Assembly (NCBI GenBank): GCA_012295275.1 | Contig: CM022678.1 | Span: 69,501 to 133,500, forward strand | Source: Chrysomallon squamiferum | Lineage: Eukaryota; Mollusca; Gastropoda; Neomphalida; Peltospiridae | Length of the DNA: 64,000 nucleotides | Direction of reading: 5' to 3' | Shown: positions 4,694 through 50,585 of the stretch, one piece after another | How positions within the stretch are numbered: the stretch's first letter is position 1 | How the letters are laid out: the number at the start of each line of letters is the position of its first letter | The notes under the pieces: model-generated | What the model was told of the DNA's origin: nothing | What the model saw: only the letters and a program-made list of their open reading frames with translations | Databases searched by the model: none | Position numbers and translations under genes: made by a program

Positions 4694-4711
4694 TTCGTTC
4701 AGTTACGTATT
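4694..4711 (+). other. residual Oxford Nanopore ligation-adapter sequence
   Basis: TTCGTTCAGTTACGTATT directly after the gap equals the 3' part of the nanopore ligation adapter top strand. Homology to the right-hand copy of the 36.1-kb repeat starts immediately after it, so it is not genomic. Confidence 0.9.
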
Positions 4712-5096
4712 ACTGAGAAAACTTAAGAATATTTATTGAAACTATTGGTGACATCTGTTCATTTTCATTGTTTGTTCCAGCATTTAATAGTGAAAAATAA
4801 TAAATATAAGTTATTGAAACTACTTTTACATTGTTTGTTTTGTAATATAGTAAATTATTTTATGATATGTTCATTTTATATTGTTTATATGGCACGGTTT
4901 TGATATTAGGGTTGACAAAACTAAAAACTATAACTTAGTTACTATTCTGATATATTAAGTATTGTGACAAAATTAAAAGTATAACATAGTAAAACTGTTC
5001 TGATAGTTATTATATTTACATAATTTAATGAGTTGCAGTTCAGAAAACAGACTATAAGGCTTTGTGATAATGATTACATTTTGCAGGTCATGCCAA

Positions 5097-5152
5097 CAGA
5101 TAACATAAAAAGTTCAAGTATCTTCTAACAGCAGAAATGTCTTTCTTCAGAA
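5097..5152 (+). CDS. gene A copy 1, Ser-rich 5' exon (indel-damaged)
   Basis: Counterpart of 41177-41247. The acceptor TTTTGCAG precedes it. Compared with the right copy, several single bases are missing and the donor has become AATATG, so the frame cannot be read here. See the right copy for the peptide. The damage fits poor consensus near the contig end. Confidence 0.4.
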
Positions 5153-5873
5153 TATGATGAGTGTTTATATCTTTATCAATCGGTATACATAAATCTAGTG
5201 CTTACCTTTGGATAAGAAAATTCAGAAATGGACAAAATTATTATTTGTAGCGATGGGCTTTTAGGTGTTGTTTTGCTTTTTATTATCATTTTGTAAACTG
5301 ACGCTTTTCTGATTTATATTGTAAATAAATTAACAATTTAAAGGGTTCTAAGTACTTTCTGACAGACAAAATTAAAAAATAATAATAATAAAAAAAATAA
5401 ATAAAAAAATAACATAAAATAAAAAATAATTGCATACTAATTACTCCTGACTATTATAATTATTGTGTTCACCATTATTTACTGTAATCTTAGGTCATAT
5501 GTCCACAACATCTATGCATAATTAGTTAACAATACTAAGCACATTTGTTAAAAAACACATATTGCTGTATTCAGTAATACATTTTAGACAGACACAGTAT
5601 TATACTGTATGTTGCCATATCTCTACATACAATTAAAAACATTTGCTGTGTTTACAACATGCACATTCATTACATAGACACACACAAATATATTCAGAGA
5701 CACATGTGTGCTGTCATATCTCTACATATATATAAAACAGTTTTGTGTTTTCAAAATTGCTACAACATTTTATAATTATATCTAATTCTCAGTATTTTGC
5801 AGGTAAAAACATTTTTGAAATTATGCATTGAAGTTGTGAATTATAAAAGTGTGTTTACTCTGTTTTACTGCAG

Positions 5874-5935
5874 GACTAATGTCAAGTAATATATATCATT
5901 CTGGTTCTACTGAAATGACAGGTAACACTATACCC
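5874..5935 (+). CDS. gene A copy 1, cassette exon with RHIM-like motif
   Basis: Acceptor TTTTACTGCAG and donor GTAAGTTA. The exon enters with 2 nt of a split codon and reads LMSSNIYHSGSTEMTGNTIP. The portion NIYHSGSTEMTGN has the spacing of RHIM motifs (N-I-Y-N/H). This copy has lost one G at the exon-donor junction (ACCCGTAAG against ACCCGGTAAG in the right copy), so it is 62 nt rather than 63. The right copy at 41980-42042 is the better version. Confidence 0.55.
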
Positions 5936-6351
5936 GTAAGTTAAAACTGAAAGTTTTCTCTTCTCTATATATTTAATAGTGTAACAGAATACACAGTAGA
6001 CATTAGTACTTTAACTATCAGACACTGTTACCTGAATAACATTGAAACAGCACATAAATAGAAAGATACAATAAATATAAACATACATACTTGTACCTAC
6101 AGTTAGCTCATACACAGAAAACAGACATACACAGACATACACATAAATACATTCAGACTGAGACACACTATGTATGTTAAACTGTATGCTGTCATGTTTC
6201 TACATATATATAAAAAAATTGTTTTGTTTTTCAAAAATTGCTACATTTTATAATTATATCTAATTCTCAGTATTTTTGCAGATAAAACATTTTTAGAAAT
6301 TATGCATTGAAATTGTGAATTATAAAAAGTATTTGCTCTCTTTCACTGCAG

Positions 6352-6414
6352 TACAACTGCCAGCAGATGCATCTCATTCTGTTTCTTCTCAAATAGGAAA
6401 TAACTATGTATCCG
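6352..6414 (+). CDS. gene A copy 1, cassette exon with RHIM-like motif
   Basis: 63 nt between acceptor CTTTCACTGCAG and donor GTAAGTTA. Reading 2+60+1 gives QLPADASHSVSSQIGNNYVS. SQIGNNYV resembles the RHIM core (V/I-Q-I/V-G-x-x-N), and the H three residues after A matches the N/H position of RHIMs. Intact in both copies (see 42463-42525). Skipping it would keep the frame. Confidence 0.6.
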
Positions 6415-6858
6415 GTAAGTTAATAACTGAAAGTTTTCTGTTCTCTACATGTTTAATAGATAACAGAATACATACTAAATATTAGTACTTTTTTCTCAGA
6501 CACTGTGACCTGAACAACATAGAAAGATGCACATTAATACATAGACACAATACATATGAATATACATACCTGTACCTACATTTAGCACATACACAGAACA
6601 CATACATACACATATATATATGCAGGCGTGCAGTACACAGATATACACACAGATATATTCAGACTGAGATACAGTGTATGTATGTTAAACTGCATGATGT
6701 CATATCTCTTACATATATATAAAATCAAAATGTGTTTCAAACACTGGTGCTGCATTTAATAATTACATCTAATTCACAGAATCTTGCAGGTAAAACATTT
6801 TTAGATATTATGCATTAAATTTATGAATAATAAAATATATATTTACTTTGTTTCACAG

Positions 6859-6919
6859 GACAGTCCTTAATAAACATAATTAACAGTCCAGGTGCTAAAA
6901 GTAGGAGATATTAAACTGA
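6859..6919 (+). CDS. gene A copy 1, cassette exon with RHIM-like motif (1-bp insertion)
   Basis: Acceptor TTGTTTCACAG, donor GTAAGTTA. It encodes the QSLINIINSPGAKVGDIKL exon, but GCTAAAAG here has one A more than the right copy (GCTAAAG), so the frame breaks in a homopolymer. The right copy (42970-43029) is 60 nt and in frame. Confidence 0.5.
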
Positions 6920-6960
6920 GTAAGTTAAAAACTGAAAAGTTTTCTTTTGTGTGTCTGTTT

Positions 6961-9900
6961 AATATATAACACATCCGAGTGAGTGCAATACATCATCACG
7001 AGGAGACGAGTGCAGATTGTTATATATGAAAATATTTAGAATCCTCATCTAATATCTTTTCCAATACATCATGTATATAACTTGAAACTGACTAAGTTGT
7101 AGCAGTTTCTAATAATGTTTATGCAACAGAATACCCAAGTAACCAATGGCTTCAGGAAATATTCAGGAATTTCAGATTATAGAATTAAAAAACGTTGTTC
7201 TGGTGAATGCAGCAGGTCAGAAATATGAAAATGTGTCCAGATGCTAAAGCGATGGTCAGTGACAGATTAAAAACAGGTCTGTAAAAAAATACTTAGTAGA
7301 AGTATCAGTGTTATTAACATACTGAAGTGCACATTTCATATCATGTTTCAGAGTTTCAACTTTTATTATGATCTCATTATGTGCATACACTGAGATGGCA
7401 ATGTGTGTATGTATGTTTCTTGATAGATACAAAGATATTTGTAAAGTTGATGAAGGTTTTGTCCTGTTTTGGCACTCATGATCTTAGTGGATGTAACCTA
7501 AAACAGCAGTGAAGTACACAAGTAAAACCTAATTAACAGACAAGCTGACGTCACCAAGCTCACTCAGTAACTGTTTAGAAGTCATTTTACCGCAGTGTTG
7601 ACCTTCTAGCAACATAGCTAAATATTACCAGACAAAACTACTTATTTTCATTAAATCAAACACTGAGTCAAAGTTTTGACACCATTAATGTTGCCCAGAA
7701 CAAAGTCTGTGCTGCAGAGGTTACCCTAATAAAACCAAAACCTTGTTAACTAAGAAATTGTAATTTTGAGAGCAACATTAATATTTTTGATACAAGTAAT
7801 ATCATTTTTTCCTTTGAGTGAGGGGAGTAAAAGAAATGAAAAAATATTTTAATTGTTTTACCTGTTCGGAAATAGCTGTCCGATCTATGTGTGCAGGGCT
7901 GGAAATCAAAGCATTTTGTTTCATTTTAACTATTCTCGTTTTTTTACTTTAACAATTTCAAAAATTACTTATTATTCCTCTATAATTATCAAAGCAACAT
8001 TAATTATCCATAACACTTCCGGCTTTTACCTATGAAACTAAATAAATTACACTTTATTAACAGAAAAAAAACAGAAAGAAAGAAACTTTATATAACTGTA
8101 TTAATTTATTGCAGTCATAATCCTTAGTTGATATGTATTATTACTCATTTATAAACTATAATACATAATTTTAAGTAGTGTTACGGAAAAGAAAATGATT
8201 ATGCAAACATTTTTTGAATTACGTAGAATTTACACACACACAGACACATAAAAACATAAATAAATTAACACAAACATTCACACATACAAACATATTCAGG
8301 CATAGAAAAAGTTTTGACTGAGATTTTCTTCTTAAACTGTTGATATAACTCAACATGACTATATATGCCTGTCATTATTATCACCTGTAAATACTAAATA
8401 TACTGCAAAGCATACATAACATCAACAGCAACAACAACAACAACAATAATAATAATAACAATAACAACAGCAACAATAAACAGTGGGGCATCTAAGGCAC
8501 TCACAAGCGACCATTAATTAACACCATCGTCACGTAACCAAATTAGAACCCTTTATTGGGCATAACACTCTTCCTCCAAAATAACACTAACTATACATAG
8601 GAAACTCCCTGTATCGGGTAGATAGCTACCCAATTTGGCTTGACTCTAAGGCCATATATGTATTTATATTTAATGTTAAATCATTAGAAACACAAAAACA
8701 GAAGTTTGGATTAAAGAATATATGATCTAATAATAGTTATTTACCAAGTAAGCTTACAATGTCTGCACAGCCGATTGCAAACAGTTTTACGCCACAAAAT
8801 TCACATACTTGAACATGTGAGAGATATTTCATATGTTTAAACTAGGAAACCCCAAGATGTATTTGAAGATGCAAGTATATCAAACTAATGTTCTGTTTAG
8901 CAGGACATTGACGTGACAGTCAGTTAATAATAACACCATTGTGGTATCTATGTTTACAATTACTGATGGTCAGTGTTGATCTCAGATACCCACTATTCTC
9001 ACCCACTGTTTCAGAGATAACAGTCTACAGTTACTGTGATGAGTCTGATCTCAGATTACCAGCCGTGCTCCAAATTAATGGTTATACCAGTGATTCTCAA
9101 CAAGTGTGCCGCGGCAATTGATTCTCAACCAGTGTGCCGCAAACTTTTGTAGAAAAACAGTTTGAGAAAAAACACGATTGACTGACCTGTCATTCAGAAA
9201 CATGGAAAATCATTCTGTTGTTAATCATCACAAAGTTGTAATAACTTGTCACATGTTTTCACTCATTATTTCAGTGCTTAAATTTTCTCCAAGTGTATAT
9301 TTGTGACATTTCCATTTGTATTGTTTATATCATGTTTATATTGTTTATATATTTTGGGATCAATTCCTCCTACATTAATTTGAGTGAGTATAATTACAAC
9401 TATTCAGATATTATCTGTACATTTATATTGTTTATATAACAAAATTTTGTAATAGCATTAAGTTTAAGTTATTCTGATATTACTAGTGTTAATCCTATAT
9501 TATTTAACTCGCCCAACTGTGATTGTTCTACATGTTTTAACATTATTTGCAATTTGTGATGGTTTTCAAAGAAAAACAGAAAGATTTAAATTCGAACATT
9601 TTCAGTATGATAAAATTTTAGAAGACAGTCTATAAGATTAAAACTAGTATTAATACAAGGAACTAGATGTAGGTCTCTAGAAGAGTATGCAAGATGTAGG
9701 AGGTTTTGGGATCAATTCCTCCTGATAGAATCTTGAGCTGTTTCTATTTTAGCAGTGCAGAACAACTGAGTTATGAAATAGTAACTGTCTGTGGGTAGGT
9801 ATAAATGTAATAAGAAATAGTGGACTGTGAAGTGACAACACAGGGTTTTTTCTTGTATTATCTAAATGTTCCTTAATCTTATGTCTAACCTCATATAAAT

Positions 9901-9979
9901 AAAAAAAAATTCTTCCTTCTGTTAAAAAAAACACAACAAAAGAAAATAAAAACTCAAATCCTTATATTACTTTTTACAG
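6961..9979. other. gene A intron, about 3 kb
   Basis: Between the cassette exons and the Ser-rich exon I see no convincing exon. It holds CA-rich and AAC/AAT-rich stretches (about 8230-8300 and 8420-8480), a hAT-like terminal fragment (9088-9150), and from about 9170 a block paralogous to 18440-19540 upstream of gene B. The small open frame at 7853-8035 is identical in the right copy only because the whole region is duplicated. Confidence 0.6.
9088..9150. mobile_element. hAT-type terminal-repeat fragment inside gene A intron
   Basis: CAGTGATTCTCAACAAGTG and then GATTCTCAACCAGTGTGCC repeat the terminal-inverted-repeat motif seen at the ends of the hAT element at 52440-54047. Only terminal sequence is present. 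The right copy (about 45196-45258) has CATGG instead of CCGCGG between the two halves. Confidence 0.5.
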
Positions 9980-10297
9980 TTCAACCAATACAGATGACAA
10001 AAAAGAGTTCAAAAAATCTTTCTAGCATCACAGCTGATTTTTCCTCTGACAACATCACAGCTGAGTCTTCCTCTGACAACATCACAACTGAGTCTTCCAT
10101 TGACAACATCACAGCTGATTCTTCCTCTGACAACATCACAACTGAGTCTTCCATTGACAACATCACAGCTGAGTCTTCCTCTGACAACATCACAGCTGAG
10201 TCTTCCATTGACAACATCACAGCTGAGTCTTCCTCAGGCAACATCACAACTGAGTCTTCCTCGGACAACATCAATCCTAGAGTAATTTTTATTTATG
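9980..10297 (+). CDS. gene A copy 1, Ser/Thr/Asn-rich repeat exon
   Basis: 318 nt between acceptor CTTTTTACAG and donor GTAATAC, reading 2+315+1, so it keeps the phase of the neighbouring cassette exons. The peptide begins QPIQMTKKSSKN and continues with nine 9-residue repeats of the type SSDNITAES/SIDNITTES, encoded by a 27-bp tandem repeat. It ends in a hydrophobic segment NPRVIFIYG similar in layout to the RHIM-like end of the gene B exon at 19980. Each repeat carries an N-I-T sequon, but no signal peptide is seen, so glycosylation is not implied. It looks like a flexible acidic spacer. The right copy (46092-46409) is identical in translation. Confidence 0.65.
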
Positions 10298-10488
10298 GTA
10301 ATACATAGAGCATTTCAATATATTATTTTCTTTATTGATTGGAAACTCTAAGCAGAATTATTATTTGTATCTGTTCCAATGCAGTTTTCAATATATTGTT
10401 TTGATGAGGCAATTCTAATCTGACAAAATTATTATTTATATCTGTAACTGTCTTATATTGTTTACTTTTCTAAAAAGATTATTTGTAA

Positions 10489-11293
10489 ACTGACATTTTT
10501 TTCTGATTTAAACTGATAATAAATTAACAACTGAAAAGGTTTCATGTACTCTCTTACAGGCAAACGTAGCAAAAATAATAAATTTAAAAAATAGACTAAT
10601 TATTGTTTCATCATAACTATTATAATTATTCTTGTGTTGACCATTATTTATTTTAATGTTGTAAAGCAATGCTCACATCAAATGTTATCTATGTATAATT
10701 AGTTAGCATTACTAAAGACAGTTGTTAAAACATATATTGCTATATTCTGTAATACTGTTCACACAGACTGTATTATACTGTATGCTGCCATATCTCTATA
10801 GATAGATAAAAATTTTCTATATTCTTAGAAATCATGCACTGAAGTTACAGAAATGTTTTTACTCTGTTTCACAGGATCAACGGTGATAAATAACATTAGC
10901 AGTCAGATTTGTCAATTCAGACATGACAATACAGCCAGTAAGTTAAAGACTGACATTTTTTTCTGATTTAAACTGATAATAAATTAACAACTGAAAAGGT
11001 TTCATGTACTCTCTTACAGGCAAACGTAGCAAAAAATAATAAATTTAAAAATAGACTAATTATTGTTTCATCATAACTATTATAATTATTCTTGTGTTGA
11101 CCATTATTTATTTTAATGTTGTAAAGCAATGCTCACATCAAATGTTATCTATGTATAATTAGTTAGCATTACTAAAGACAGTTGTTAAAACATATATTGC
11201 TATATTCTGTAATACTGTTCACACAGACTGTATTATACTGTGTGCTGCCATATCTCTATAGATAGACATGACAATACAGCCAGTAAGTTAAAG
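10489..11293. repeat. local tandem duplication, ~318-bp units 460 bp apart
   Basis: 10489-10806 recurs at 10949-11265 nearly unchanged. The tail 11266-11293 (ACATGACAATACAGCCAGTA...) repeats the 3' end and donor of the exon at 10875-10937. The second unit therefore carries a stub of the exon. The arrangement is shared with the right copy (46600-47400). Confidence 0.85.
10875..10937 (+). CDS. gene A copy 1, 63-nt cassette exon (weak RHIM-like)
   Basis: Acceptor CTGTTTCACAG, donor GTAAGTTA, 2+60+1 nt. Peptide STVINNISSQICQFRHDNTA. It aligns by position with the other cassette exons, and CQFRHDNT could correspond to the V-Q-V-G-x-x-N core, but the glycine is missing, so the motif is weak. Identical in the right copy (46985-47047). 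Confidence 0.5.
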
Positions 11294-12177
11294 ACTAAAA
11301 CTGTTCTCTTCTCTACATTTTTAATAGGTAACAGTCATGAATTTAGATTGCTGTCAGTGCCATAACATTCCGTAATAGATTATCAAAAGGCTGTTATCAT
11401 AAAAATTAAATATGTATCTTTGATTAGCAACTGAACTGTAGCCCATATTAGATTTCATGAATTAGTGTCCTTGTCCATAACTATTGATGAGATATTTCCA
11501 CTTTCCAACAGCAAAATACAAACAGTTAAATATTATAAATTCCACAAAGTATTACAAATTGCGGGCCATTTATTAGATACATGTACACTCTGTATACATT
11601 TCTGTATTTATAAACCTGGTGGGGGCTTGTCATATTTTGGTTCACACTTTCTTAATGGATGACTAAAAAAAACTAATCACCAGGCAAGTTCATGTCACCA
11701 AACTCATTTGGTCATTTCTGATTTTCAGAAATCATTTTACTACAGTGCAGACTTTCTAGCAACTACTTAGCTAAATTATTAACTACAAAACTATTTTTCA
11801 TTAAATAGAAGAAAGTGTTATACATTTATTTTGGTATCAAACAATAAAAGCAAGTAGTAATCTGCCACTCACAGCAGTTAAATAGTCTCTCTCTCTCTCT
11901 GTGTGTGTGAAACCTAATCACTTAAACATGGTCATATAACTGGCATTTCCTTGACCAATAACATGTCACATATAGAAATGCATACATGTATACTAATCAA
12001 ACATAATTTAAACATGTAGTTTGTGGACAGTATAACACATACTAGTTACAAAATAATAGTTGAAGGATCAATTTTTTTTTAACATGGATATTACAGTTAC
12101 TTTTCTATAAAATCAACACAATTACTACACACATGCATATTCAGAACTGTCTAATGAGTAATATCTCCACATTTCAG
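11294..12177. other. gene A intron before the ankyrin exon
   Basis: No exon seen. It contains a CT/GT microsatellite at about 11886-11910 whose length differs between the two copies. Confidence 0.5.
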
Positions 12178-12811
12178 TTCTTGATAAAGAAGTAGGGAAG
12201 ATAAAAGGGATGAAACTAAAATGCTAGAAATCCTGGTTAATTCTGGAAATCCTGTGGATATAATAAATGACAAAAACAATAAAGGTGAAACAGCTTTGAT
12301 TGTAGCTCTGAAAAACCATTGTAGACAGAAAGCTGGTTTTTTACTGGAATGTGGAGCTGATCCTTGTGCATCAGACGATGATAGAAATTCTGTTTTGCTT
12401 CTAGCTGCTAAACAAGGATATTTTGAAATTGTGAAACAATTGATTAAGAAAGGAGTTGATGTGAATACTAAAAACAGTACAGGTGAAACTCCTCTGTTTA
12501 CAGCTGTTAAGTATGAACAGAACAAAGTAGCGTTGTATTTACTGGAAAATGGAGCTGATCCTAATTTAACAGACAATGATGAAAATTCTGTTTTACACCT
12601 AGCAGCTAAATGTGGAAATAGAGAAATTGTGACAGCACTGATTGGAAAAGGTGTTAATGTAAATATTAGAAACATTACAGGTGAAACTCCTGTTTTAACA
12701 GCTGTTAAGCATCAGCAGAAGGGTATAGTTTCATATTTACAGGAAAATGGTGCTGATCTTACTATAAAAGACAATGATAACAATTCTGTTTATCACCTAG
12801 CAGCTAAATAA
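12178..12811 (+). CDS. gene A copy 1, ankyrin-repeat exon
   Basis: The exon starts after CACATTTCAG in the same split-codon phase as the upstream exons. Comparison with the right copy gives VLDKEVVEDKRDETKM as the entry. This copy lacks one base at GTAGGGAAG (GTAGTGGAAG in the other), so the open frame restarts at 12221. The 196-residue frame contains about five ankyrin repeats with canonical GETPLFTAV, LLENGADPN and SVLHLAA elements, expected to form a protein-binding solenoid. The TAA at 12809-12811 falls where the repeat pattern expects CAA (AAK-Q-ENVEIV), and it is present in both copies, so it is probably a real nonsense mutation or the end of the protein. Confidence 0.7.
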
Positions 12812-13318
12812 GAAAATGTAGAAATTGTGACAAAATTGATTGAAAAGATGTTGATATAAATATTTGTAATGGAACCTCATTAATGCCTTTTTGCCAGGCT
12901 TGTTTTTAATCGAAATTTTGTCTTCTATGTAGTGAATTATATAATATTCGTAAAACACTTATTTTTATAAGTGGTAATTATGGTATACATTTTAATATTA
13001 CAGTCTGTTATCCTTTAGACAGGAGGAGCCAAATTTTAGGTATTAATACCAATTAAGCTAATCTCCGTACAGGGGAAACTCCTCTTTCTACAGCTGTTAA
13101 GTATAAACAGAAACGTGTAGTTTTGTATTTACTGGAACGTGGAGCTGTTCTTAATTAACAACATCAGCTCCATGTTCCAGTAAATACAAAACTACACATT
13201 TCTGTTTTACACCTAGCAGCTAAACATGGAAATATAGAAATTGTGAGAGTATTGATTGAAAAAGGTTCTGCTGTAAATATTTTCAGTCAAGGTAAATCGC
13301 CCTTTCATGTAACATGAA
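12812..13318 (+). pseudogene. decayed ankyrin-repeat continuation with fold-back
   Basis: Ankyrin coding resumes in pieces: ENVEIVTKLIEK after the stop, GETPLSTAVKYKQKRVVLYLLERGA at 13070-13145, and VLHLAAKHGNIEIVRVLIEKGSAVNI at 13200-13280, ending at a TGA in CATGTAACATGA. Frames are disrupted by stops, an AT-rich insertion (12880-13040) and an inverted duplication at 13115-13197. The same lesions occur in the right copy. Confidence 0.6.
13115..13197. repeat. inverted repeat within ankyrin sequence
   Basis: GTGTAGTTTTGTATTTACTG...GGAGCTG is followed, after about 17 bases, by its reverse complement CAGCTCC...CAGTAAATACAAAACTACAC with about one mismatch over 32 bases. One arm is in coding orientation, the other inverted. 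The right copy has it at about 49201-49280 with small losses. Confidence 0.8.
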
Positions 13319-13630
13319 ATTAAATGTATATCTGATGCACAAGCATTGAGCAGTCTGAAAAAAAGAAAAACAAAACAGAAGTTTTGTATTAATATTGAGA
13401 AATTTATGAATATAAATAAATGAAACTATTCTAATATTGTCTATGTATTTTCATTGTTTATATAACTTAGTTTACTAAAATTATTCTTAAGATATGTGCA
13501 TATATATTTTTTATATAACACATTGTGGTACTAGGATTGACAAAACTAAAATATAACTTAGTAAAGTATTTTGATAATTATTATATAATTTTACAATAGA
13601 TGATAAAATAAAAATGTTACAAAAAAGATA
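13319..13630. other. spacer between ankyrin fragments
   Basis: AT-rich. It includes the block CTATGTATTTTCATTGTTTATATAAC and the TTGACAAAACTAAAATATAACTTAG block, which are also found upstream at 4740-4990. No exon seen. Confidence 0.5.
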
Positions 13631-14595
13631 GTGAAACCTGACTGTTTTGATGTTCTTGCTCATGAGTTTACTGACTTGCTGGCATCAAATAATGCCAGAG
13701 AAATTATTTCACATCCATCACTGAAAGATGAAGGGTTTGTAAAGTATCTCATAGGGGAAAAACATTTTGGTGGTAGACTGTCTGAAATACTGCATCAGAA
13801 ACTTTTTGAAAATGCATTTCATAAAAACAGTCCTCATTCAATACTTGCTCAAAAGAAATATTTTTATATATCAGTAGAAATATTTCATGTCTTCTTGACA
13901 ATGAGTCAAAAACTATATCTAGTTACATGTGGTATTTGGAAGTTGAAGACACTTTTAATTTTCATTCACTGTTCCAAGTGAGTGCATTGTGAATAGACAA
14001 AGAACATTAAGATTGTTCACATCAAATCTATGTAAAATGAAACTAACGTGTTTGAAAAAAGAACTTTTAGATATTTCTTGTTTGTTTGGTGATGAAGATA
14101 TTGTGAGAATGTTGCTAAAATCAGGTGTTACACCAACATTTGATACACTGAATGCAGCTGCTTGTTCAAAAACAGACAGTGCTACCATACTCAAAGAACT
14201 GTTACAGTATAAAAAGAAGATGAAATTGAATATTTGTTCTCACTTGTTACATATTTCAATTTGTTCAGGTAACATGAACATTGCCTGTCTGTTGGCTGAG
14301 ATGATAAACAATGAGAAACAGTGAAATAAAGGAAAAAGTTGTAAAACTTTTATTGGTTAGGTTCCAAAGTACTTCAAGTGTTATAAAAGAAATAGTAAAA
14401 CTGAAACCTGATTGTGTAAATGATGAGAACAGAGATAAAGTACTTTTAGCAGCAGCAATGTGGGGATCTACTGATACAGTGAATGTTCCCACTGAACAGA
14501 GATGTAATGATACAGATGGAAACAACTGAAAGAAAAGTGAAATACTGAAAGTGGTAAGTGATATTTAACACTGTAGATGTTGTTCAGAAATATTT
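13631..14595 (+). pseudogene. STAND C-terminal plus ankyrin-like fragment
   Basis: Three overlapping frames (13631-13981, 13989-14324, 14311-14529) carry one coding sequence broken by single-base shifts. The first reads CFDVLAHEFTDLLASNNAR and LSEILHQKLFENAFHKNS, like the helical segment after the NTPase in STAND/ankyrin proteins. The next are degenerate ankyrin repeats (LLDISCLFGDEDIVRMLLKS, LLHISICSGNMNIACLLAEM, DENRDKVLLAAAMWGSTDTV). No P-loop is present. The end is similar to the isolated fragment at 35535-35725, which continues further in the same frame. Probably a relic of another family member. Confidence 0.55.
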
Positions 14596-19543: not shown

Positions 19544-19617
19544 CTCAACCAACAGTGATTATGAAAAAATGTGTTCAGCAATTTTATCTGACATCACAGA
19601 TGTGGCATCCTCAAAGA
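19544..19617 (+). CDS. gene B, 5' Ser/Asp-rich exon
   Basis: Acceptor TTTTTAACAG, donor GTATGAC. Read as 1+72+1 nt it gives STNSDYEKMCSAILSDITDV followed by ASSK. The equivalent gene A exon (41177-41247) has the same 1-nt entry, TCA start and GTATGAC donor, which argues for this frame. It would follow an exon ending after two codon bases. Function unknown, probably linker or N-terminal sequence. Confidence 0.45.
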
Positions 19618-19979: not shown

Positions 19980-20081
19980 TTAGAAGAACACAACCACTAG
20001 TAAAACATAATGTAAATATCAGCACAGTTCACAATTACCAGGATGTGTCTAATAACAGGAATGTTGTGTTTGGAAATCAAG
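19980..20081 (+). CDS. gene B exon with RHIM-like motif
   Basis: The acceptor TTCTTTTACTCAG is good. The exon enters with 2 nt and reads RRTQPLVKHNVNIS, TVHNYQD, VSNNRNVVFGNQV. The last part fits hydrophobic-x-N-x3-hydrophobic-x-hydrophobic-G, the RHIM layout. The donor is poor: gene A has GTAAGTTAAAAACTG where gene B has GTTATTAAAAACTG, so the exon may be weakly spliced or dead, or read through to a TGA at 20093. Its intron flanks are paralogous to the ~480-bp units of gene A. Confidence 0.5.
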
Positions 20082-20602: not shown

Positions 20603-20632
20603 CAACTGATGAACAAGCATCCAATATCAAAG
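20603..20632 (+). CDS. gene B 30-nt micro-exon
   Basis: TTTTTTGTTACTTCAG acceptor and AAAG/GTATAT donor bracket 30 nt that read 2+27+1, giving TDEQASNIK. It keeps the family's phase, which is the main support. The second unit at 21413-21450 reads CAAAGACTGATAAATGAGC with an in-frame stop and no good donor. Confidence 0.45.
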
Positions 20633-21696: not shown

Positions 21697-22978
21697 AGTA
21701 TACCAGGTCAGTGTTAAACTCAGTTGACTGGAGTGTCTATGTTGAAACAAGAGCAGAGAAAAGAGGTGTTGAACTTTTGAAGAAACATGGTGTTGTGATT
21801 GTAGTAGGATGTCCAGGTTCAGGAAAAGACAACTCTAGCTTTGAGGATGATGAGAGAGATAGAAAAAGAAGAAAAAAGAGAATCTTACTCACTGACTCAT
21901 CACTATGAATTCAATGACATCTCTCTATTTAGAAATAAGAAATTTGTTGTTCTCATTGATGACATATTTGGTAAGACTAATCTTGTTTCATATTTTAGAG
22001 ACTCATGGAAACCGAAATTTATAAAGGTGTGGAGTCTTGTTCAGGATGGTTCTTTGAAATGTATTATTACTTTAAGAAAACAAATATTTTCAGAAACTAA
22101 AACTAGTTTGAAGAAATTTGGTCTGTTTAATGAGAATCATGTTTTTGATCTCTGTTGTCTGAATTATTATGAAAAGGAACAAATTCTAAACAAATATCTT
22201 AAAAAACACAATGTTACCGTGAATGAAAATGGTAAAAAAGACTGTCATTTACAATTCATTTACAGAGTTAGGATTTCCTCAGATGTGTGTGTATTATGTT
22301 AATTCAAGTGATGCACAAAAAAAAGAGGAGTTGAGTTTTTAAGAAACCTGTAGAGTATCTCAGACAAGAGCTGGAAAATTTGAAAACTGACAAAACTTTA
22401 CAGATCAATTATCTGGTTCTACTGCTGATTTTGTTCAAAGAAGGCAGTCTCAGCATTGATTCACTGGACCCATTTAAAAATGACTCTGACAGTGACATAA
22501 TGAAATTAATAAGGTTGCTAGAGCAAGTCTGCCCGAGTCTGAAAAACACTGGTCTTAGAGATATAAAGAAAACAGCTGATGTAATGTGTGGTACCTATTT
22601 GAAGTGTTGTGAGAATAAATACACATTTATTCACCAGTCAGTAATTGACTGTTTGTTTCTGATGTTTTCAGTAGAGTTTTCAAAGAAAGCAGCAGAGTTT
22701 CTAGAAGTGAGTCCTGTCTCCATGTTGTTAGAATATGTTGTTCAGTGTCGTCTTGGTAAAGGAGCTGATCCTAATCTGAATGCAGATGTTAACCAGAAAC
22801 TGATTCAACAGTTTGAAGAGGAAATTAAATTAAAACTGTGGTCTGATGACAAAACTAGTTTAAATTTGTCCACTTTAGACTCACCTCTCCACATTTCAGT
22901 TCTGCGTGGTGACTTAGATATGTTAAAATCACTAATAAAGAGAAATGCTGATGTTAACATGAGTAAACAGTGAGGAAA
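21697..22978 (+). pseudogene. gene B STAND-type P-loop NTPase (frames broken by single-base shifts)
   Basis: The exon enters after ATGCAG with 2 nt of a split codon (YTRSVLNSVDWSVYVETRAE). Walker A is GVVIVVGCPGSGK, and the next residues TTLALRMMREIE lie in the adjacent frame, so one surplus A in GGAAAAGACA breaks the P-loop codon. Walker B is KKFVVLIDDIFGK, followed by a sensor-like arginine region (CIITLRKQIFSE). A second shift near 22265 separates this from LGFPQMCVYYV, and a third region at 22380-22973 gives the helical C-terminal part (YTFIHQSVIDCLFLMF) and the first ankyrin repeat (SPLHISVLRGDLDMLKSLIK). Order and motifs match the STAND NTPases called nSTAND3 found with ankyrin repeats. 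Such proteins act as ATP-switched oligomerising sensors. Whether the shifts are sequencing errors or mutations is open. Confidence 0.7.
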
Positions 22979-24099
22979 ACTCCACTTCATGAAACTGTAA
23001 AAAGCAGTGAAACACAGAAAGGAAGTAGCTTTGTTGTTACTGCAAAATGGTGCTGATACTAATATAACAGATAAAAAAAATAATTCAGCACTGCACATAG
23101 CATCTCAAATTGACATAAAAGTGGTAAAAGAAGTAGTAAAAAAAGGTGTTCAAATAAATGTAATTAACACTGAAGGTCAAACTCCTCTTTTTTTGTCCTT
23201 ATACAGTAACAAACCAGAAATAACTTCATACTTACTGAAACATGGAGCTGATCCTAATTTAACAGACATTCATAACAATTCTGTTTTACACTTAGCAGCT
23301 GAACATGGAAATCTAAAAATTGTGAGAGCACTGATTGAAAAAGGAGTTGATGTAAATATTAAAAACGGTCAAGGTGAAACTCCTCTTTTTACAGCTGTTA
23401 AGTATGAACATTGCAAAGTAGTTTTGTATTTACTGGAACATGGAGCTGATCCTCATTCAAAAGACAATAATAACAATTCTATTTTACATTTAGCTAAAGC
23501 ATGGAAATAGAAAATATTGTGACAGCTCTGATTGAAAAACATGTTGATGTAAACATTATAAACAGAAGTGGTGACACTCCTCTTTTTTGCAGCTATCAAG
23601 TATGGGCAGAACAAAGTAGTTTTGTACTTACTGGAAAATGGAGCTGATCTAATTTAAAAGACAGTGATGAAAATTCTGTTTTACACATAGCAGCTATACA
23701 AGAAAAATCTAGAACTTTTGACAGCACTGATTGAAAAAGAATTTGATATAAATGTTAGAAACAGTAAAGGTGAAACTCCTCTCTTTACAGCTCTGAATTA
23801 CTACAAATATGATTTTTACAAGCACCCACCAGCTGTGTAAATGTCGTAATAATGAAACTCTCAGAAGTAATTTTGTATTTACTGGATCATGGAGCTGATC
23901 CTAATATAACAGACAATGATAACAATTGTGTTTCCCAACAGACAGCTTATTGTGCAAATCTAACAATTATGAGAAAACTAACTGAATGAGGTGTTGATGT
24001 AAATGTTATTAATTCAATTGAAAAACTCCTATTGATATAGCTAACAGTTGCAGATTTCATCCGTAACAAGGAAATTGTCTTTACTGAATGCTAAAGATG
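22979..24099 (+). pseudogene. gene B ankyrin-repeat domain (partly open)
   Basis: Directly follows the NTPase. A long open frame (23007-23510) holds about five ankyrin repeats (VALLLLQNGADTN, SALHIASQ, GQTPLFLSL, YLLKHGADPN, SVLHLAAEHGN, ALIEKGVDVN). At 23497 LHLAKAWK replaces the expected LHLAAKHGN after a one-base change. Further repeats continue to about 24090 in shifting frames. The last recognisable sequence is LLNAKDG at a possible donor ATG/GTAAGA (24100). The high similarity between repeats suggests recent repeat amplification. The domain probably recognises a ligand or partner. Confidence 0.65.
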
Positions 24100-40061: not shown

Positions 40062-40125
40062 GAGGATAACTGGCAACAAACATAATTAACAGTCCACATG
40101 CTCATATAGAAAACAATCAACTGCA
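40062..40125 (+). pseudogene. decayed RHIM-like cassette exon upstream of gene A copy 2
   Basis: After CTCTTTCACAG the sequence aligns with the exon at 42970 (shared AACATAATTAACAGTCCA). The frame has a stop at its second codon and then reads LATNIINSPHAHIENNQLH. NIINSPHAHIENN keeps the RHIM-like spacing. The donor has changed from GTAAGTT to ATAAGTT. Its counterpart would lie left of the contig end in copy 1. Confidence 0.5.
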
Positions 40126-40256
40126 TAAGTTAACTGTTTTGTGGACCGGATTTTAAGTTCATTTTACACCGGGTTAACAACGCCTGAAATCAGAATGGTT
40201 TATTACTTTGATATGGGATGAAATGAATTACATTACTGATAAAAGTGATATTATAC

Positions 40257-40299
<43 letters not shown>

Positions 40300-41176
40300 T
40301 CCATTCCTTTTATACAGCTGTTCTGACTATATACAAGACCCAGTGGTAACCCAAATGTGCTCCAGCATTTTCAAATCTGGACTCATGACTGGCCAAGGCA
40401 GAATTGTTAAAACTTTGTTTTATAGTTGGGCTGTTACTTGATGAGATTACCAATGACAGTGATTGTAGTGAAGTTGATACCCAGTACATTTGCTGGACAT
40501 CATTTTTGTATCCATTCCTTTTATCTGCCATATTTTTGCCTCTGATGTCCTCCTTCATGTAATATATACTGTGAATGACACAATACAATGGAGTTAAATA
40601 TGCATATATGATGTAGAATATTCTGCAGTTTGGAAAACTCATGGGTGGACATTGGTAAGTTTTCACTTATGGTGTTTGTATAACTTAATTTAGTACTGAT
40701 ATTGAGAAAACTGAGCATATAACTTACTAAAAGTATTCTGGTGTTATCTATATATTTCCATTGCTTATGTTACAATTTAGTTTTAGTACTGAGAAAACTA
40801 AGAATATGTTTTATTGAAACTATTATGATAGTATCTGTTCATTTTCATTGTTTATTTAACTTAATTTAATATTAGTATTGAAAAATATGTAAATATAAGT
40901 TATTGAAACTACTTTTACATTGTTTGTTTTACTTAATATAGTAAAATTATTTTATGATATGTTCATTTATATTGTTTATATAGCACAGTTTGATATTAGG
41001 GTTGACAAAACTAAAACTATAACTTAGTTACTATTCTGATATATTAAGTACACTTGACAAAATTAAGAGTATAACATAGTAAAACTGTTCTGATAATTAT
41101 TATATTTACATAATTTAATAGTGCAGTTCAGAAAACAGACTATAAAGGCTTTGTGATAATGATTACATTTTTACAG
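40126..41176. other. non-coding before gene A copy 2
   Basis: TAA microsatellite at 40256-40301, dispersed repeat 40349-40420 (partner 18287-18355). Homology to the left gene A copy begins at about 40788. Confidence 0.5.
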
Positions 41177-41247
41177 GTCATACCAACAAGATAACATAAA
41201 AAGTTCAGAAGTATCTTCTAACAGCAGAAATGTCTCTTCTTCAGAGA
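41177..41247 (+). CDS. gene A copy 2, Ser-rich 5' exon
   Basis: Acceptor TTTTTACAG, donor GTATGAC. Read as 1+69+1 nt it gives SYQQDNIKSSEVSSNSRNVS followed by SSE. Same entry phase and donor as gene B exon 19544-19617. Ser/Asn-rich, probably disordered. Confidence 0.45.
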
Positions 41248-41979
41248 GTATGACAAAATTGTTTATATCTTTATCAATCAGTATACATAAATCTAGTGCT
41301 TACCTTTGGATAAGAAATTCGAAATGGACAAAATTATTATTTATGTGTAACGATGTAGCTTTTAAATTGTTGTTTACTTTTTATTATCATTTGTAAACTG
41401 ACACTTTTCTGATTTATATTGTAAATAAATTAACAATTTAAAGGGTTCTAAGTACTTTCTGACAGACGAAATTAAAAAAAATAATAATAATAAAAAAATA
41501 AATAAAAAAATAACATAAAATAAAAATAATTGCATACTAATTACTCCTGACTATTATAATTATTGTGTTCACCATTATTTACTGTAATGCTTAGGTCATA
41601 TGTCACAACATCTATGCATAATTAGTTAACAATACTAAGCACATTTGTTAAGAAACACATATTGCTGTATTCAGTAATACATTTTAGACAGACTGTATTA
41701 TACTGTATGTTGCCATATCTCTACATACAGATTAAAAACATTTGCTGTGTGTTACAAACATGCAGACATTCATTACATAGACACACACAAATATATTCAG
41801 AGACACATGTGTGCTGTCATATCTCTACATATATATAAAACAGTTTTTTGTGTTTCAAAAATTGCTACAACATTTTATAATTATATCTAATTCTCAGTAT
41901 TTTGCAGGTAAAAACATTTTTTGAAATTATGCATTGAAGTTGTGAATTATAAAAGTGTGTTTACTCTGTTTTACTGCAG

Positions 41980-42042
41980 GACTAATGTCAAGTAATATAT
42001 ATCATTCTGGTTCTACTGAAATGACAGGTAACACTATACCCG
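41980..42042 (+). CDS. gene A copy 2, cassette exon with RHIM-like motif
   Basis: 63 nt between TTACTGCAG and GTAAGTTA, 2+60+1. LMSSNIYHSGSTEMTGNTIP. NIYHSGSTEMTGN lines up with RIPK3-type NIYNCSGVQVGDN at the N, I, Y and N/H positions but has E-M-T in place of Q-V-G. Confidence 0.6.
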
Positions 42043-42462
42043 GTAAGTTAAAAACTGAAAGTTTTCTCTTCTCTATATATTTAATAGTGTAACAGAATAC
42101 ACAGTAGACATTAGTACTTTGCTATCAGACACTGTTACCTGAATAACATTGAAACACGCACATAAATAGAAAGATACAATAAATATAAACATACATACTT
42201 GTACCTACAGTTAGCTCATACACAGAAAACAGACATACACAGACATACACATAAATACATTCAGACTGAGACACACTATATGTATGTTAAACTGTATGCT
42301 GTCATGTTTCTACATATATATAAAAACATTGTTTTGTTTTTCAAAAATTGCTACATTTTATAATTATATCTAATTCTCAGTATTTTGCAGATAAAAACAT
42401 TTTTAGAAATTATGCATTGAAATTGTGAATTATAAAAAAGTATTTGCTCTCTTTCACTGCAG

Positions 42463-42525
42463 TACAACTGCCAGCAGATGCATCTCATTCTGTTTCTTCT
42501 CAAATAGGAAATAACTATGTATCCG
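42463..42525 (+). CDS. gene A copy 2, cassette exon with RHIM-like motif
   Basis: 63 nt between TTTCACTGCAG and GTAAGTTA, 2+60+1. QLPADASHSVSSQIGNNYVS. The QIGNN core is the closest in this array to the RHIM tetrad. Confidence 0.62.
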
Positions 42526-42969
42526 GTAAGTTAATAACTGAAAGTTTTCTGTTCTCTACATGTTTAATAGATAACAGAATACATACTAAATATTAGTACT
42601 TTTTTCTCAGACACTGTGACCTGAACAACATAGAAAGATGCACATTAATACATAGACACAATACATATGAATATACATACCTGTACCTACATTTAGCACA
42701 TACACAGAACACATACATACACATATATATATGCAGACGTGCAGTACACAGATATACACACAGATATATTCAGACTGAGATACAGTGTATGTATGTTAAA
42801 CTGCATGATGTCATATCTCTTACATATATATAAAATCAAAATGTGTTTCAAACACTGGTGCTGCATTTAATAATTACATCTAATTCACAGAATCTTGCAG
42901 GTAAAACATTTTTAGATATTATGCATTAAATTTATGAATAATAAAATATATATTTACTTTGTTTCACAG

Positions 42970-43029
42970 GACAGTCCTTAATAAACATAATTAACAGTCC
43001 AGGTGCTAAAGTAGGAGATATTAAACTGA
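42970..43029 (+). CDS. gene A copy 2, cassette exon with RHIM-like motif
   Basis: 60 nt between TTGTTTCACAG and GTAAGTTA, 2+57+1. QSLINIINSPGAKVGDIKL. IINSPGAKVGD matches the RIPK1 layout IYNSTGIQIGA position for position (I-x-N-S-x-G-x-x-V/I-G). Clean frame, unlike the left copy. Confidence 0.62.
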
Positions 43030-46000: not shown

Positions 46001-46091
46001 CCTCATATAAATAAAAAAAAATTCTTCCTTCTGTTAAAAAAAACACAACAAAAGAAAATAAAAACTCAAATCCTTATATTACTTTTTACAG
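43030..46091. other. gene A copy 2 intron
   Basis: Counterpart of 6961-9979. No additional exon recognised. The hAT-terminus fragment is at about 45196-45258. Confidence 0.6.
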
Positions 46092-46409
46092 TTCAACCAA
46101 TACAGATGACAAAAAAGAGTTCAAAAAATCTTTCTAGCATCACAGCTGATTTTTCCTCTGACAACATCACAGCTGAGTCTTCCTCTGACAACATCACAAC
46201 TGAGTCTTCCATTGACAACATCACAGCTGATTCTTCCTCTGACAACATCACAACTGAGTCTTCCATTGACAACATCACAGCTGAGTCTTCCTCTGACAAC
46301 ATCACAGCTGAGTCTTCCATTGACAACATCACAGCTGAGTCTTCCTCAGGCAACATCACAACTGAGTCTTCCTCGGACAACATCAATCCTAGAGTAATTT
46401 TTATTTATG
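46092..46409 (+). CDS. gene A copy 2, Ser/Thr/Asn-rich repeat exon
   Basis: Identical in translation to 9980-10297: nine 9-residue NIT repeats then NPRVIFIYG, 318 nt, same splice phase. The perfect conservation of a 27-bp repeat array between copies argues for the same locus or a very recent duplication. Confidence 0.65.
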
Positions 46410-46984: not shown

Positions 46985-47047
46985 GATCAACGGTGATAAA
47001 TAACATTAGCAGTCAGATTTGTCAATTCAGACATGACAATACAGCCA
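46985..47047 (+). CDS. gene A copy 2, 63-nt cassette exon (weak RHIM-like)
   Basis: STVINNISSQICQFRHDNTA, same boundaries as 10875-10937. Confidence 0.5.
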
Positions 47048-48276: not shown

Positions 48277-48905
48277 TTCTTGATAAAGAAGTAGTGGAAG
48301 ATAAAAGGGATGAAACTAAAATGCTAGAAATCCTGGTTAATTCTGGAAATCCTGTGATATAATAAATGACAAAAACAATAAAGGTGAAACAGCTTTGATT
48401 GTAGCTCTGAAAACCATTGTAGACAGAAAGCTGGTTTTTACTGGAATGTGGAGCTGATCCTTGTGCATCAGACGATGATAGAAATTCTGTTTTGCTTCTA
48501 GCTGCTAAACAAGGATATTTTGAAATTGTGAAACAATTGATTAAGAAAGGAGTTGATGTGAATACTAAAAACAGTACAGGTGAAACTCCCTCTGTTTACA
48601 GCTGTTAAGTATGAACAGAACAAAGTAGCGTTGTATTTACTGGAAAATGGGAGCTGATCCTAATTTAACAGACAATGATGAAAATTCTGTTTTACACTAG
48701 CAGCTAAATGTGGAAATAGAAAATTGTGACAGCACTGATTGGAAAAGGTGTTAATGTAAATATTAGAAACATTACAGGTGAAACTCCTGTTTTAACAGCT
48801 GTTAAACATCAGCAGAAGGGTATAGTTTCATATTTACAGGAAAATGGTGCTGATCTTACTATAAAAGACAATGATAATTCTGTTTATCACCCAGCAGCTA
48901 AATAA
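48277..48905 (+). pseudogene. gene A copy 2, ankyrin-repeat exon (multiple indels)
   Basis: The entry VLDKEVVEDKRDETKM is intact here, whereas copy 1 has a one-base loss. After that, at least eight single-base indels relative to copy 1 break the ankyrin frame (CCTGTGATA for CCTGTGGATA, ACTCCCTCTG for ACTCCTCTG, AATGGGAGC for AATGGAGC and others). The same final TAA is present. Each copy supplies bases the other lost, so the frame damage is more likely consensus error than mutation. Confidence 0.6.
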
Positions 48906-50355
48906 GAAAATGTAGAAATTGTGACAAAATTGATTGAAAAGATGTTGATATAAATATTTGTAATGGAACCTCATTAATGCCTTTTGCCAGGCTTGTTTTA
49001 ACGAAATTTTGTCTTCTATGTAGTGAATTATATATATTCAGAAACACTTATTTTTATAAGTGGTAATTATGGTATACATTTAATATTACAGTCTGTTATC
49101 CTTTTAGACAGGAGGAGCCAAATTTTAGGTATTAATACCAATTAAAGCTAATCTCATTAGGGAAACTCTTTTCTACAGCTGTTAAGTATAAACAGAAAAC
49201 GTGTAGTTTTGTATTTACTGGAACGGAGCTGTTCTTGATTAACAACATCAGCTCCATGTTCCAGTAAATACAAAGACACATTTCTTTACACCCAACAGCT
49301 AAACATGGAAATATAGAAATTGTGAGAGTATTGATTGAAAAGGTTCTGCTGTAAATATTTTCAAATCAAGGTAAATGCCTTTCATGTAACATGAAATTAA
49401 ATGTATATCTGATGCACAAGCATTGAGCAGTCTGAAAAAAAAAAAAAAACAGAAGTTTTGTATTAATATTGAGAAATTTATGAATATAAATAAATGAAAC
49501 CATTCTAATATTGTCTATGTATTTTCCACATTGTTTATAACTTAGTTTACTAAAATTATTCCAAGATATGTGCATATATATTTTTTATATAACACATTGT
49601 GGTACTAGGATTGACAAAACTAAAATATAACTTAGTAAAGTATTTTGATAATTATTATATAATTTTACAATAGATGATAAAATAAAAATGTTACAAAAAA
49701 GATAGTGAAACCTGACTGTTTTGATGTTCTTGCTCGCAGGTTTATTGACTTGCTGGCATCAAATAATGCCAGGAGAAATTATTTCACATCCATCACTGAA
49801 AGATGAAGGGTTTGGCAAAAGCATCTCATGAGGAAAACATTTTGGTGGTAGACTGTCTGAAATACTGCATCAGAAACTTTTTGAAAATGCATTTCATAAA
49901 AACAGTCCTCATTCAATACTTGCTCAAAAGAAATATTTTTATATATCAGTAGAAATATTTCATGTCTTCTTGACAATGAGTCAAAAACTATATCTAGTTA
50001 CATGTGGTATTTGGAAGTTGAAGACACTTAAATTTCATTCACTGTTCCAAGAGTGCATTTTAATAGATGAAGAACATTAAGATTGTTCACATCAAATCTA
50101 TAAAATGAAACCATAATTTGGTTTGAAAAAAAAAGAACTTTAGATATTTTTGTTTGTTTGGTGATGAAGATATTGTGAATGTTGTTAAAACTAGGTGTTG
50201 TACCAACATTTGATATTAATTAATGGTTTTGTTCAAAAACAGACAGCTACTATACTCAAAGAACTGTTACAGTATAAAAGAAGATGAAATTAAATATTTG
50301 TTCTCACTTGTTACATATTTCAATTTGTCTTAGGTAATATGAACATTGCTCATCT
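48906..50355 (+). pseudogene. right copy of the decayed ankyrin/STAND tail
   Basis: Counterpart of 12812-14285, including the ankyrin fold-back (49201-49280) and the CFDVLA.. STAND C-terminal fragment (49705-49975), with many more small deletions. Ends at the adapter. Confidence 0.6.
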
Positions 50356-50385: not shown

Positions 50386-50585
50386 NNNNNNNNNNNNNNN
50401 NNNNNNNNNNNNNNNNNNNNNNNNNNNNNNNNNNNNNNNNNNNNNNNNNNNNNNNNNNNNNNNNNNNNNNNNNNNNNNNNNNNNNNNNNNNNNNNNNNNN
50501 NNNNNNNNNNNNNNNNNNNNNNNNNNNNNNNNNNNNNNNNNNNNNNNNNNNNNNNNNNNNNNNNNNNNNNNNNNNNNNNNNNNNN
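50386..50585. other. assembly gap, 200 N
   Basis: Exactly 200 N, the same fixed size as the first gap. Confidence 0.99.

Follow-up and report, generated by a model that had tools for sequence, protein, structure and literature searches.

Tandem short exons beside nSTAND3-ankyrin receptor genes of Chrysomallon squamiferum as probable diverged relatives of RHIM exons

The window analyzed here, a 64,000-nucleotide stretch of the genome of the snail Chrysomallon squamiferum (C14:69501-133500 of 404.6 Mb; CM022678.1), carries a series of short exons, hereafter cassettes, whose peptides resemble the RHIM of RIPK1, RIPK3, ZBP1, and TRIF. An earlier note, made from the letters of this stretch alone, had proposed that the exons supply RHIM-like motifs to a STAND/ankyrin protein. 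By the profile and tetrad tests described below the window exons are not RHIMs; the description that suits them best is that of relatives, now diverged, of the true RHIM exons found in this receptor family. We consider it reasonably probable that the cassettes form, on an NLR-like receptor, a segment for homotypic assembly that derives from the RHIM and has been expanded by exon duplication and diversified.

Three cassettes of the window, e1, e2, and e3 (Table 1), are each flanked by a pyrimidine-rich acceptor, ...cac(tgc)ag, and a donor, GTAAGTTAAAAACTGAAAG or GTAAGTTAATAACTGAAAG, with the donor context GTAAGTTA(A/T)AACTGAAAG, and all are embedded in homologous intron units. In each, two bases finish a codon, whole codons follow, and one base is left, which corresponds to entry and exit in phase 1. 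Rechecked coordinates, phases, and flanks agree with the earlier description of these as phase-matched exons in near-identical intron units. Positions 40062-40125, which had been aligned with the array, do not belong among them: the altered donor and a phase-1 frame that hits TAA at the second whole codon mark a dead copy that is unusable as an exon, and its peptide, NIINSPHAHIENN, is a remnant.

A census covering 220 kb around the first matches, together with the window, recovered 84 phase 1-1 exons scoring at least 14 bits against a peptide profile (A1), 71 of them exactly 63 nt long. They are distributed over a C11 block (42), five C14 blocks (12, 7, 5, 4, and 2), C15 (7), C9 (2), and the window (3). 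The window's three are e2 twice and e1 of copy B, one of two copies of a block described below; e3, which was caught with another donor, and the out-of-frame e1 of copy A fall outside the count. Cassette lengths range from 51 to 66 nt, and some genes carry few cassettes. The majority residues read Q-x-x-A-(N/D)-I-S-H-S-G-S-T-Q-I-G-(D/N)-N-Y-V-S, with a second class ending in ...STEI(S/R)xNTIN, and the positions of lowest entropy are the polar S7, S9, S11, and N17, not the hydrophobic I6, I14, and V19.

That these units are coding exons can be judged without reference to their peptides. Among 65 units chosen by intron flanks alone in the DNA read until then, 61 were open, a multiple of three in length, phase 1-1, and bounded by AG..GT, with a unit counted as passing if any AG within a 9-nt stretch served; one of the four misses had no acceptor that could be found, and the other three had lengths that were not multiples of three. 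Looser flanks gave 72 passing units out of 78 and 72 out of 81. These strict flanks replaced an initial flank-only search that was too loose (310 units, 84 open). Because only 29% (10404 of 35378) of random 20-codon frames taken from this DNA are open, we conclude that the cassettes are coding exons.

The longest array, at C11:14028427-14054202 (L023-L025), holds 43 cassettes, mostly about 500 bp apart, which join into one 906-aa frame, partly by construction, as every exon had been preselected as open. It is interrupted by a weak frame resembling a hAT transposase (17.3 bits, below cut-off) and adjoins a RING/Deltex-like gene at 14055636-14056989. The array was considered as part of this gene, whose RING exon could take a phase-1 acceptor; an intervening exon is in phase 0 (by eye), and the link is one of adjacency only. 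A separate observation is a repeating cassette trio at C14:1277730-1282645, one member of which seems, by eye, to have AT in place of the GT donor, like the decayed window exon.

Arrays at C14:1.169, 1.285, and 2.315 Mb each precede one long open frame encoding nSTAND3 and ankyrin repeats, which runs for 939 codons (as far as the locus was read), 2260 codons (N gap included), and 1933 codons, respectively; Pfam was run on the first and third. The receptor frame at L019:542-6340 encodes 1933 aa with nSTAND3, and its nearest protein, at 47% identity, belongs to Gigantopelta aegis, a vent snail. A homologous AG gives phase-1 entry to the nSTAND3 exon in all four loci compared, window gene 2 included, where neighboring AGs would yield other phases. 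Phase 1 is also the exit phase of the Ser-rich exon upstream, and the 30-nt mini-exon that separates the cassettes from nSTAND3 is phase 1-1. The predicted arrangement of Ser-rich exon, cassettes, mini-exon, and nSTAND3-ankyrin exon is frame-consistent. Comparison of six 5' regions did not find the 5' end and start codon of the receptor genes. Genome-wide, nSTAND3 is strongly expanded, with 163 candidate places, many of them on C14 and C4, and all 22 of the places scored were over the cut-off.

A whole-genome search with the Pfam RHIM model (PF12721; curated cut-off 20 bits; positive control RIPK3, 43.4 bits) returned 11 places: five on C10, three on C3, one on C1, and two on C7 that appear to be chance matches. 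On C10 the exons measure 87 nt and are phase 1-1 (e.g., PTVNIHHCGNVQIGAENKLI), with the same acceptor and donor context as the window cassettes, and four of them score 22.2 and 20.3 bits, over the cut-off, and 19.6 and 18.1 bits, just under it. Their tetrads are VQIG or FQIG, apart from one degenerate copy with VLFR, and in the two loci read the canonical cassettes are single or paired. On C10, nSTAND3-ankyrin frames follow downstream of the Pfam-positive RHIM exons, and nSTAND3 is found within 2.5 kb downstream of three of the five C10 exons (L032, L034, and, by coordinates, L035). When downstream flanks are compared, four C10 exons align to e1-e3 with scores of 59-106, and shuffles in two-base blocks reach maxima of 23-33. 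Downstream flanks, phase, and the side of nSTAND3 on which the exons lie all point to common descent of the window cassettes with the C10 RHIM exons. The C1 place (L031, C1:46003606-46003647) encodes a RHIM-like peptide, LQLGHNNHL, over the Pfam cut-off at 21.0 bits.

Exons of intermediate character are found on C14. A DNA search with one C10 exon gave 31 places (12 on C10, 17 on C14, and one each on C9 and C13), ten of which were read. Five C14 exons, at 303.6, 319.9, 558.8, 1111.8, and 1227.0 kb, are open and 84 or 87 nt long, with intermediate sequences such as ISDCGNVLIGDNSTLI and FQVGDNNTII, and for four of these five the list of nSTAND3 places includes a same-strand one no more than 4 kb downstream (by coordinates). 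The other five are broken: three belong to a C14 series (255-271 kb), and C13 and C9 contribute one each. That series, at C14:254844-275911, consists of ten matches to the C10 RHIM exon, mostly about 2.5 kb apart, and the three read have a GC donor and no usable acceptor.

The peptides were also compared directly with RHIMs. Against the human RIPK3 RHIM, exon e3 obtains 11.6 bits, a value reached by none of 11,586 local background peptides and by none of 2,000 e3 shuffles, and e2 scores 5.3 bits against RIPK1, which is reached by 0.0009 of background peptides and 0.01 of its own shuffles. With A3, a seven-sequence RHIM profile that includes the C10 siblings, 44, 21, and 92 of the background peptides do as well as e1, e2, and e3, respectively, as do 7, 7, and 33 of the 2,000 shuffles made from each exon. 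The 99th percentile of background is exceeded by 39 (against RIPK3) and 31 (against RIPK1) of 69 family peptides, that of family shuffles by 23 and 10, and with A3 the corresponding numbers are 43/69 and 39/69. Alignment of the array profile to the RHIM by hhalign gave probabilities of 68.7% and 79.9% in the same register (E 4.5e-5 and 1.4e-5, as single comparisons). In 78 units, Q is present in 50, G in 48, N or H at position 8 in 66, and N at position 17 in 63.

The pattern of divergence is informative as well. In 15 disjoint nearest pairs from C14, the window, and C9, which are few, short, paralogous exons picked by intron similarity and possibly affected by gene conversion, the proportion of nonsynonymous sites that differ (pN) is 0.176, that of synonymous sites (pS) 0.091, and intron divergence 0.070. 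By Fisher tests on sites, pN exceeds pS (P 0.0014) and intron divergence (P 3e-15), and pS is not distinguishable from intron divergence (P 0.32). The pN/pS ratio is 1.93 in the true frame (bootstrap 1.18-5.40), compared with 0.64 and 0.99 in the shifted frames, and it is 2.44 in the 13 pairs left when the e1/e2 pair and pairs of intron difference above 0.15 are removed. The e1/e2 pair is the extreme case, with introns differing by 11% and exons differing at 47% of nonsynonymous and 5% of synonymous sites. For the nSTAND3-ankyrin body (three genes plus the window fragment), the ratio of nonsynonymous to synonymous rates (dN/dS) is 0.65-1.16. Faster change of protein than of silent sites and introns in C14-type genes is expected if cassettes are selected to diverge in partner specificity or to evade a pathogen. 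A tentative extension, which we think less likely than not, is that the arrays are rapidly diversifying homotypic assembly codes, with selection pushing cassette sequences apart, through which paralogous receptors or splice forms pick different partners without cross-talk.

A number of results weigh against a RHIM-derived receptor segment and must be set beside these observations. PF12721 gave no match at E<=10 for e1, e2, and e3, singly or joined, which is the comparison that the earlier note had recommended, and at the same limit none for the decayed exon, e5, or the gene-2 exon; there was likewise no match for ten paralogue peptides from C14, C9, C11, and C15, and none of the five open C14 intermediates is Pfam RHIM-positive. 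Two of eight concatemers, both from C11, do list RHIM in register at 8.9 and 9.1 bits, below the cut-off of 20; for one of the two, gerPA ranks higher (21.5 bits, E 2.8e-4, cut-off 27.3), and a HET-S motif model scores 10.6. The strict tetrad [VIL]Q[VIL]G is present in 1 of 78 units, and in 28 of 78 when any residue is accepted before Q; the tetrads of e1, e2, and e3 are TEMT, SQIG, and AKVG. Against RIPK1 and RIPK3, e1 and the decayed exon are weak, and e5 shows no RHIM likeness. Human RIPK3 given the lamprey tetrad TQIG failed to activate NF-kB (excerpt of PMC12119088), and TQIG is the typical tetrad of the cassette consensus; this failure suggests that derived cassettes may have lost classical RHIM signaling or changed partner. 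In the C11 array, pN/pS is 1.37 and not significant (bootstrap 0.98-2.58; Fisher P 0.17).

The evidence from genomic context has similar exceptions. The upstream flanks of C10 exons are barely above shuffles, and some are not above them, and for this reason descent of the flanks is better shown than descent of the motif itself. Within the 1.5 kb read at two C10 exons (L038 and L039), nSTAND3 was not seen. In gene 1 of the window no nSTAND3 was seen between the cassettes and the ankyrin exon, and the window genes are broken, through the gene 1 ankyrin frame and frame changes in gene 2. Array products compared with 5.8 billion proteins had no relative at E<=0.001 or at E<=1, in searches that scored about 8,000 candidates each and were limited by shared words and length. 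The N-termini of 11 of 12 annotated nSTAND3-ankyrin relatives from Gigantopelta and Haliotis (P0012 excluded) carry no cassette motif above shuffles. On these protein comparisons the arrays look lineage-specific.

Taken with these results, the earlier proposal survives in part. The description of the motifs as RHIM-like is supported by e2 and e3, whose scores exceed background and are better than those of shuffled peptides, as well as by siblings over the Pfam cut-off, but it fails at the level of the Pfam profile and the tetrad. Similarly, cassettes do precede nSTAND3-ankyrin frames at other C14 loci, but the array of the window itself meets an ankyrin exon without nSTAND3, followed by decay.

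Among other explanations, the main one, which we nevertheless judge unlikely, is that each 21-codon exon forms one coil of a repeat solenoid, either like a leucine-rich repeat (LRR) or like a beta-helix, which presents a variable recognition surface; the RHIM look would then reflect ancestry or coincidence, and diversification would be driven by ligands. The uniform 63-nt unit and the 43 exons of one C11 array suit such a fold, as does pN>pS, which is usual in recognition repeats. In phmmer searches, a concatemer of five C14 and five C11 cassettes matched plant LRR receptor kinases (six PDB sequences, best E 3.5e-6, with single stretches no better than E 0.024), and two column-permuted controls had no LRR match. 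Bactofilin, which is a beta-helix fold (E 0.02; 15.5 bits, cut-off 27.9), and Phage_spike (E 0.13 and 4.7) were also returned, all below cut-offs. However, C11 Q-class repeats alone give no PDB match, four array products give no LRR family in Pfam at E<=10, and no repeat profile exceeds its cut-off. Conservation also falls on the polar core residues S7, S9, S11, and N17 and not on a hydrophobic core, the number and length of cassettes vary, and the C10 siblings are RHIMs by Pfam.

It is somewhat less likely still that the C14, C11, and C15 cassettes are by-products of tandem duplication of a once useful RHIM exon, mostly skipped or neutral, with only the single C10-type exon functional. The decayed appearance of the window copies, the defective splice sites in the three copies read of the C14:254-276 kb series, and the loss of the tetrad would all be explained in this way, as would a C11 dN that lies close to dS and to intron divergence at larger distances. 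Against this reading, 61 of 65 flank-picked units are open, in frame, and bounded by AG..GT, pN/pS is above 1 only in the true frame, and the SHSGSxQIG(D/N)N core is conserved. Finally, a chance fit of Ser/Asn/Gly-rich exons to a permissive motif, with no RHIM relation at all, is in keeping with the Pfam failures of the window exons, the gerPA match of one C11 concatemer (best Pfam family, below its cut-off, and not RHIM), and a PDB search with the array profile that returned no RHIM chain at E<=10 and only two antibody entries (best, loop NIYHSGST, E 0.83), but it is very improbable given the background and shuffle tests, the in-register hhalign result, and the downstream flanks held in common with Pfam-positive C10 exons.

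If the cassettes are indeed a RHIM-derived assembly segment, a working model can be outlined in which splicing, oligomerization, amyloid formation, and the partner are the parts that we infer. The receptors, a large NLR-like family of the snail, would be built from a Ser/Thr-rich exon, one to many cassettes, in some cases the mini-exon, and one long exon for the nSTAND3 NTPase and ankyrin repeats, with the N-terminal segment probably of amyloid type. With phase 1-1 shared by all cassettes, the frame would survive whatever number of them is included, left out, or duplicated. A ligand sensed by the ankyrin part might cause the NTPase to oligomerize and so bring the N-terminal motifs together, and the gathered motifs could seed assembly with a partner that bears a RHIM. 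In the arrays on C14, C11, and C15, the motif would have drifted to ISHSGS(T/A)QIG(D/N)N or TEIxxN and multiplied.

Possible partners are encoded on C3, where three RHIM-like exons lie within 23 kb (C3:1601343-1626858; L033, L036, and L040) and score 17.3, 17.1, and 16.6 bits, below the cut-off. Intact Death-domain frames occur within 1.5 kb of two of these exons (E 1e-11 at one; 1.9e-12 and 4.9e-14 at the other), and the frame beside the third is broken (21.8 bits, cut-off 22.6). These genes are candidate adaptors of the RIPK1 or IMD type, and the cryptic RHIM of Drosophila IMD and PGRP proteins provides a parallel. No kinase was noticed, by eye only, in about 5 kb upstream of one of the C3 exons.

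Table 1. Features of the cassette-bearing genes in the window (window coordinates)
Feature	Position	Strand	Description
Cassette exon e1	41980..42042	+	63 nt, phase 1-1, peptide LMSSNIYHSGSTEMTGNTIP / NIYHSGSTEMTGN, E class
Cassette exon e2	42463..42525	+	63 nt, phase 1-1, peptide QLPADASHSVSSQIGNNYVS / ASHSVSSQIGNNYV, Q class
Cassette exon e3	42970..43029	+	60 nt, phase 1-1, peptide QSLINIINSPGAKVGDIKL / NIINSPGAKVGD
Decayed cassette remnant	40062..40125	+	ATAAGTT in place of donor GTAAGTT; early in-frame stop
Ser-rich exon	41177..41247	+	phase 2 in, phase 1 out, SYQQDNIKSSEVSSNSRNVSSSE; 5' of cassettes
Exon e4	46092..46409	+	318 nt, phase 1-1, 27-nt tandem repeats (nine-residue DNITAESSS)
Cassette exon e5	46985..47047	+	63 nt, phase 1-1, VINNISSQICQFRHDN; scores not RHIM-like
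Ankyrin exon, copy B	48277..48960 (end approximate)	+	phase-1 acceptor; several indels break frame
Copy A of block	4708..14284	+	97% identical to 40784-50349 (copy B)
Copy A, e1	5874-5935	+	
Copy A, e2	6352-6414	+	
Copy A, e3	6859-6919	+	
Copy A, e4	9980-10297	+	
Copy A, e5	10875-10937	+	
Copy A, ankyrin exon	from 12178	+	
Ser-rich exon, gene 2	19544..19617	+	phase 2 in, phase 1 out
Candidate cassette, gene 2	19980..20080	+	NVNISTVHNYQDVSNN; degenerate donor GTTATT, out of phase
Mini-exon, gene 2	20603..20632	+	30 nt, phase 1-1, TDEQASNIK
nSTAND3 + ankyrin exon, gene 2	21697..24090 (end approximate)	+	phase 1 in; several frame breaks

Within the window, e4 and e5 are placed between e3 and the ankyrin exon of gene 1, and the Ser-rich exon of this gene has an 89% identical translated match at C14:12690986. 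The contig at 4694-50385, bounded by 200-N gaps (4494-4693 and 50386-50585), begins and ends with the 9.6-kb block copies. Exons e1 (62 nt) and e3 (61 nt) of copy A are both out of frame, and its ankyrin frame is open for 207 aa before a TAA at 12809-12811. Differences between the copies are concentrated at the contig ends, and the middle kilobases are nearly identical. Because the copies lie at contig ends between gaps and their differences pile up there, the second copy may be an assembly artifact (haplotype or repeat) or a very recent duplicate.

Gene 2 (19.5-24 kb) encodes nSTAND3 (PF20720; 56.1 bits, cut-off 27.2) plus ankyrin repeats, and its mini-exon has weak translated matches (E 0.04 and 0.11) before nSTAND3 exons at two other loci. 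Since the ankyrin frame stops and nSTAND3 is unseen in gene 1, and since the frame of gene 2 is broken, the window copies of cassettes and receptor are probably decaying; indels of this kind can stem from nanopore assembly. Elsewhere in the window there are 12-copy tandem arrays of a 68-bp unit (58860-59677; 95% match, with locally higher GC) and of a 57-bp unit (28473-29178), together with transposon-like remnants recognized by eye, a Tc1/mariner-like reading frame at 38525-39079 (-) and a ZBED/hAT-like reading frame at 53255-53755 (+).

Comparison with known systems helps to place the cassettes. The common register with the RHIM of RIPK1, RIPK3, ZBP1, and TRIF is N-I-x-(N/H)-x3-x-Q-(I/V)-G, and two C10 siblings are over the PF12721 cut-off, whereas in window-type exons the residue preceding Q is usually polar, the QIGxN spacing is one residue shorter, and several cassettes stand in tandem. 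Known RHIM carriers are kinases or TIR/Z-alpha proteins; the window-type cassettes instead accompany a STAND-ankyrin receptor. RHIMs in humans are known from those four proteins (excerpt of PMC9444067), and in primate RIPK3, according to part of PMC12119088, the tetrad is retained while positions within and near the RHIM change rapidly. As in RIPK1, which combines a RHIM with a Death domain, the RHIM-like exons on C3 adjoin Death-domain sequence, but no kinase was noticed beside the copy inspected. Spiralian RIPK1 homologues with a RHIM tetrad and a Death domain are reported in the same excerpt of PMC12119088.

Other molluscan proteins, namely Gigantopelta LOC121387078 and Haliotis rufescens LOC124125871, share the nSTAND3 and ankyrin body; they differ at their N-termini, where cassettes are not detected in 11 of the 12 annotated cases, as noted above, and a caspase domain is found in one. 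In that protein (LOC124125871, P0008), the caspase domain (36-258) precedes nSTAND3 (307-470) and the ankyrins, and its place in the N-terminal slot fits a signaling rather than a sensing role for that slot. No report of receptors of the RHIM-cassette-array type was found among the open-access papers searched.

An architectural parallel may be seen in the NLR amyloid signalosomes of fungi and bacteria (NWD2/HET-S, the PP motif, and BASS), where a STAND receptor that senses through repeats carries an amyloid-type motif at its N-terminus, as predicted for the snail receptors. The available parts of PMC7889193 and PMC12261475 present PP and BASS3 as RHIM-related. The snail case differs in that it is animal, with one motif per exon and arrays of up to 43 exons, and in that neither a neighboring gene as partner nor an execution domain was identified. 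A 2021 review asks whether the RHIM is the only metazoan signaling amyloid (excerpt of PMC7889193). If the preferred reading is true, a STAND-ankyrin family whose members begin with a RHIM exon would link the RHIM of animals with the amyloid motifs that fungi and bacteria carry on receptors, and cassette arrays with an excess of amino-acid change could serve as a natural library for the gain of specificity in amyloid signaling motifs. Should the arrays also prove to be assembly codes, they would be an animal counterpart of the insulated amyloid motif families in fungal and bacterial NLRs.

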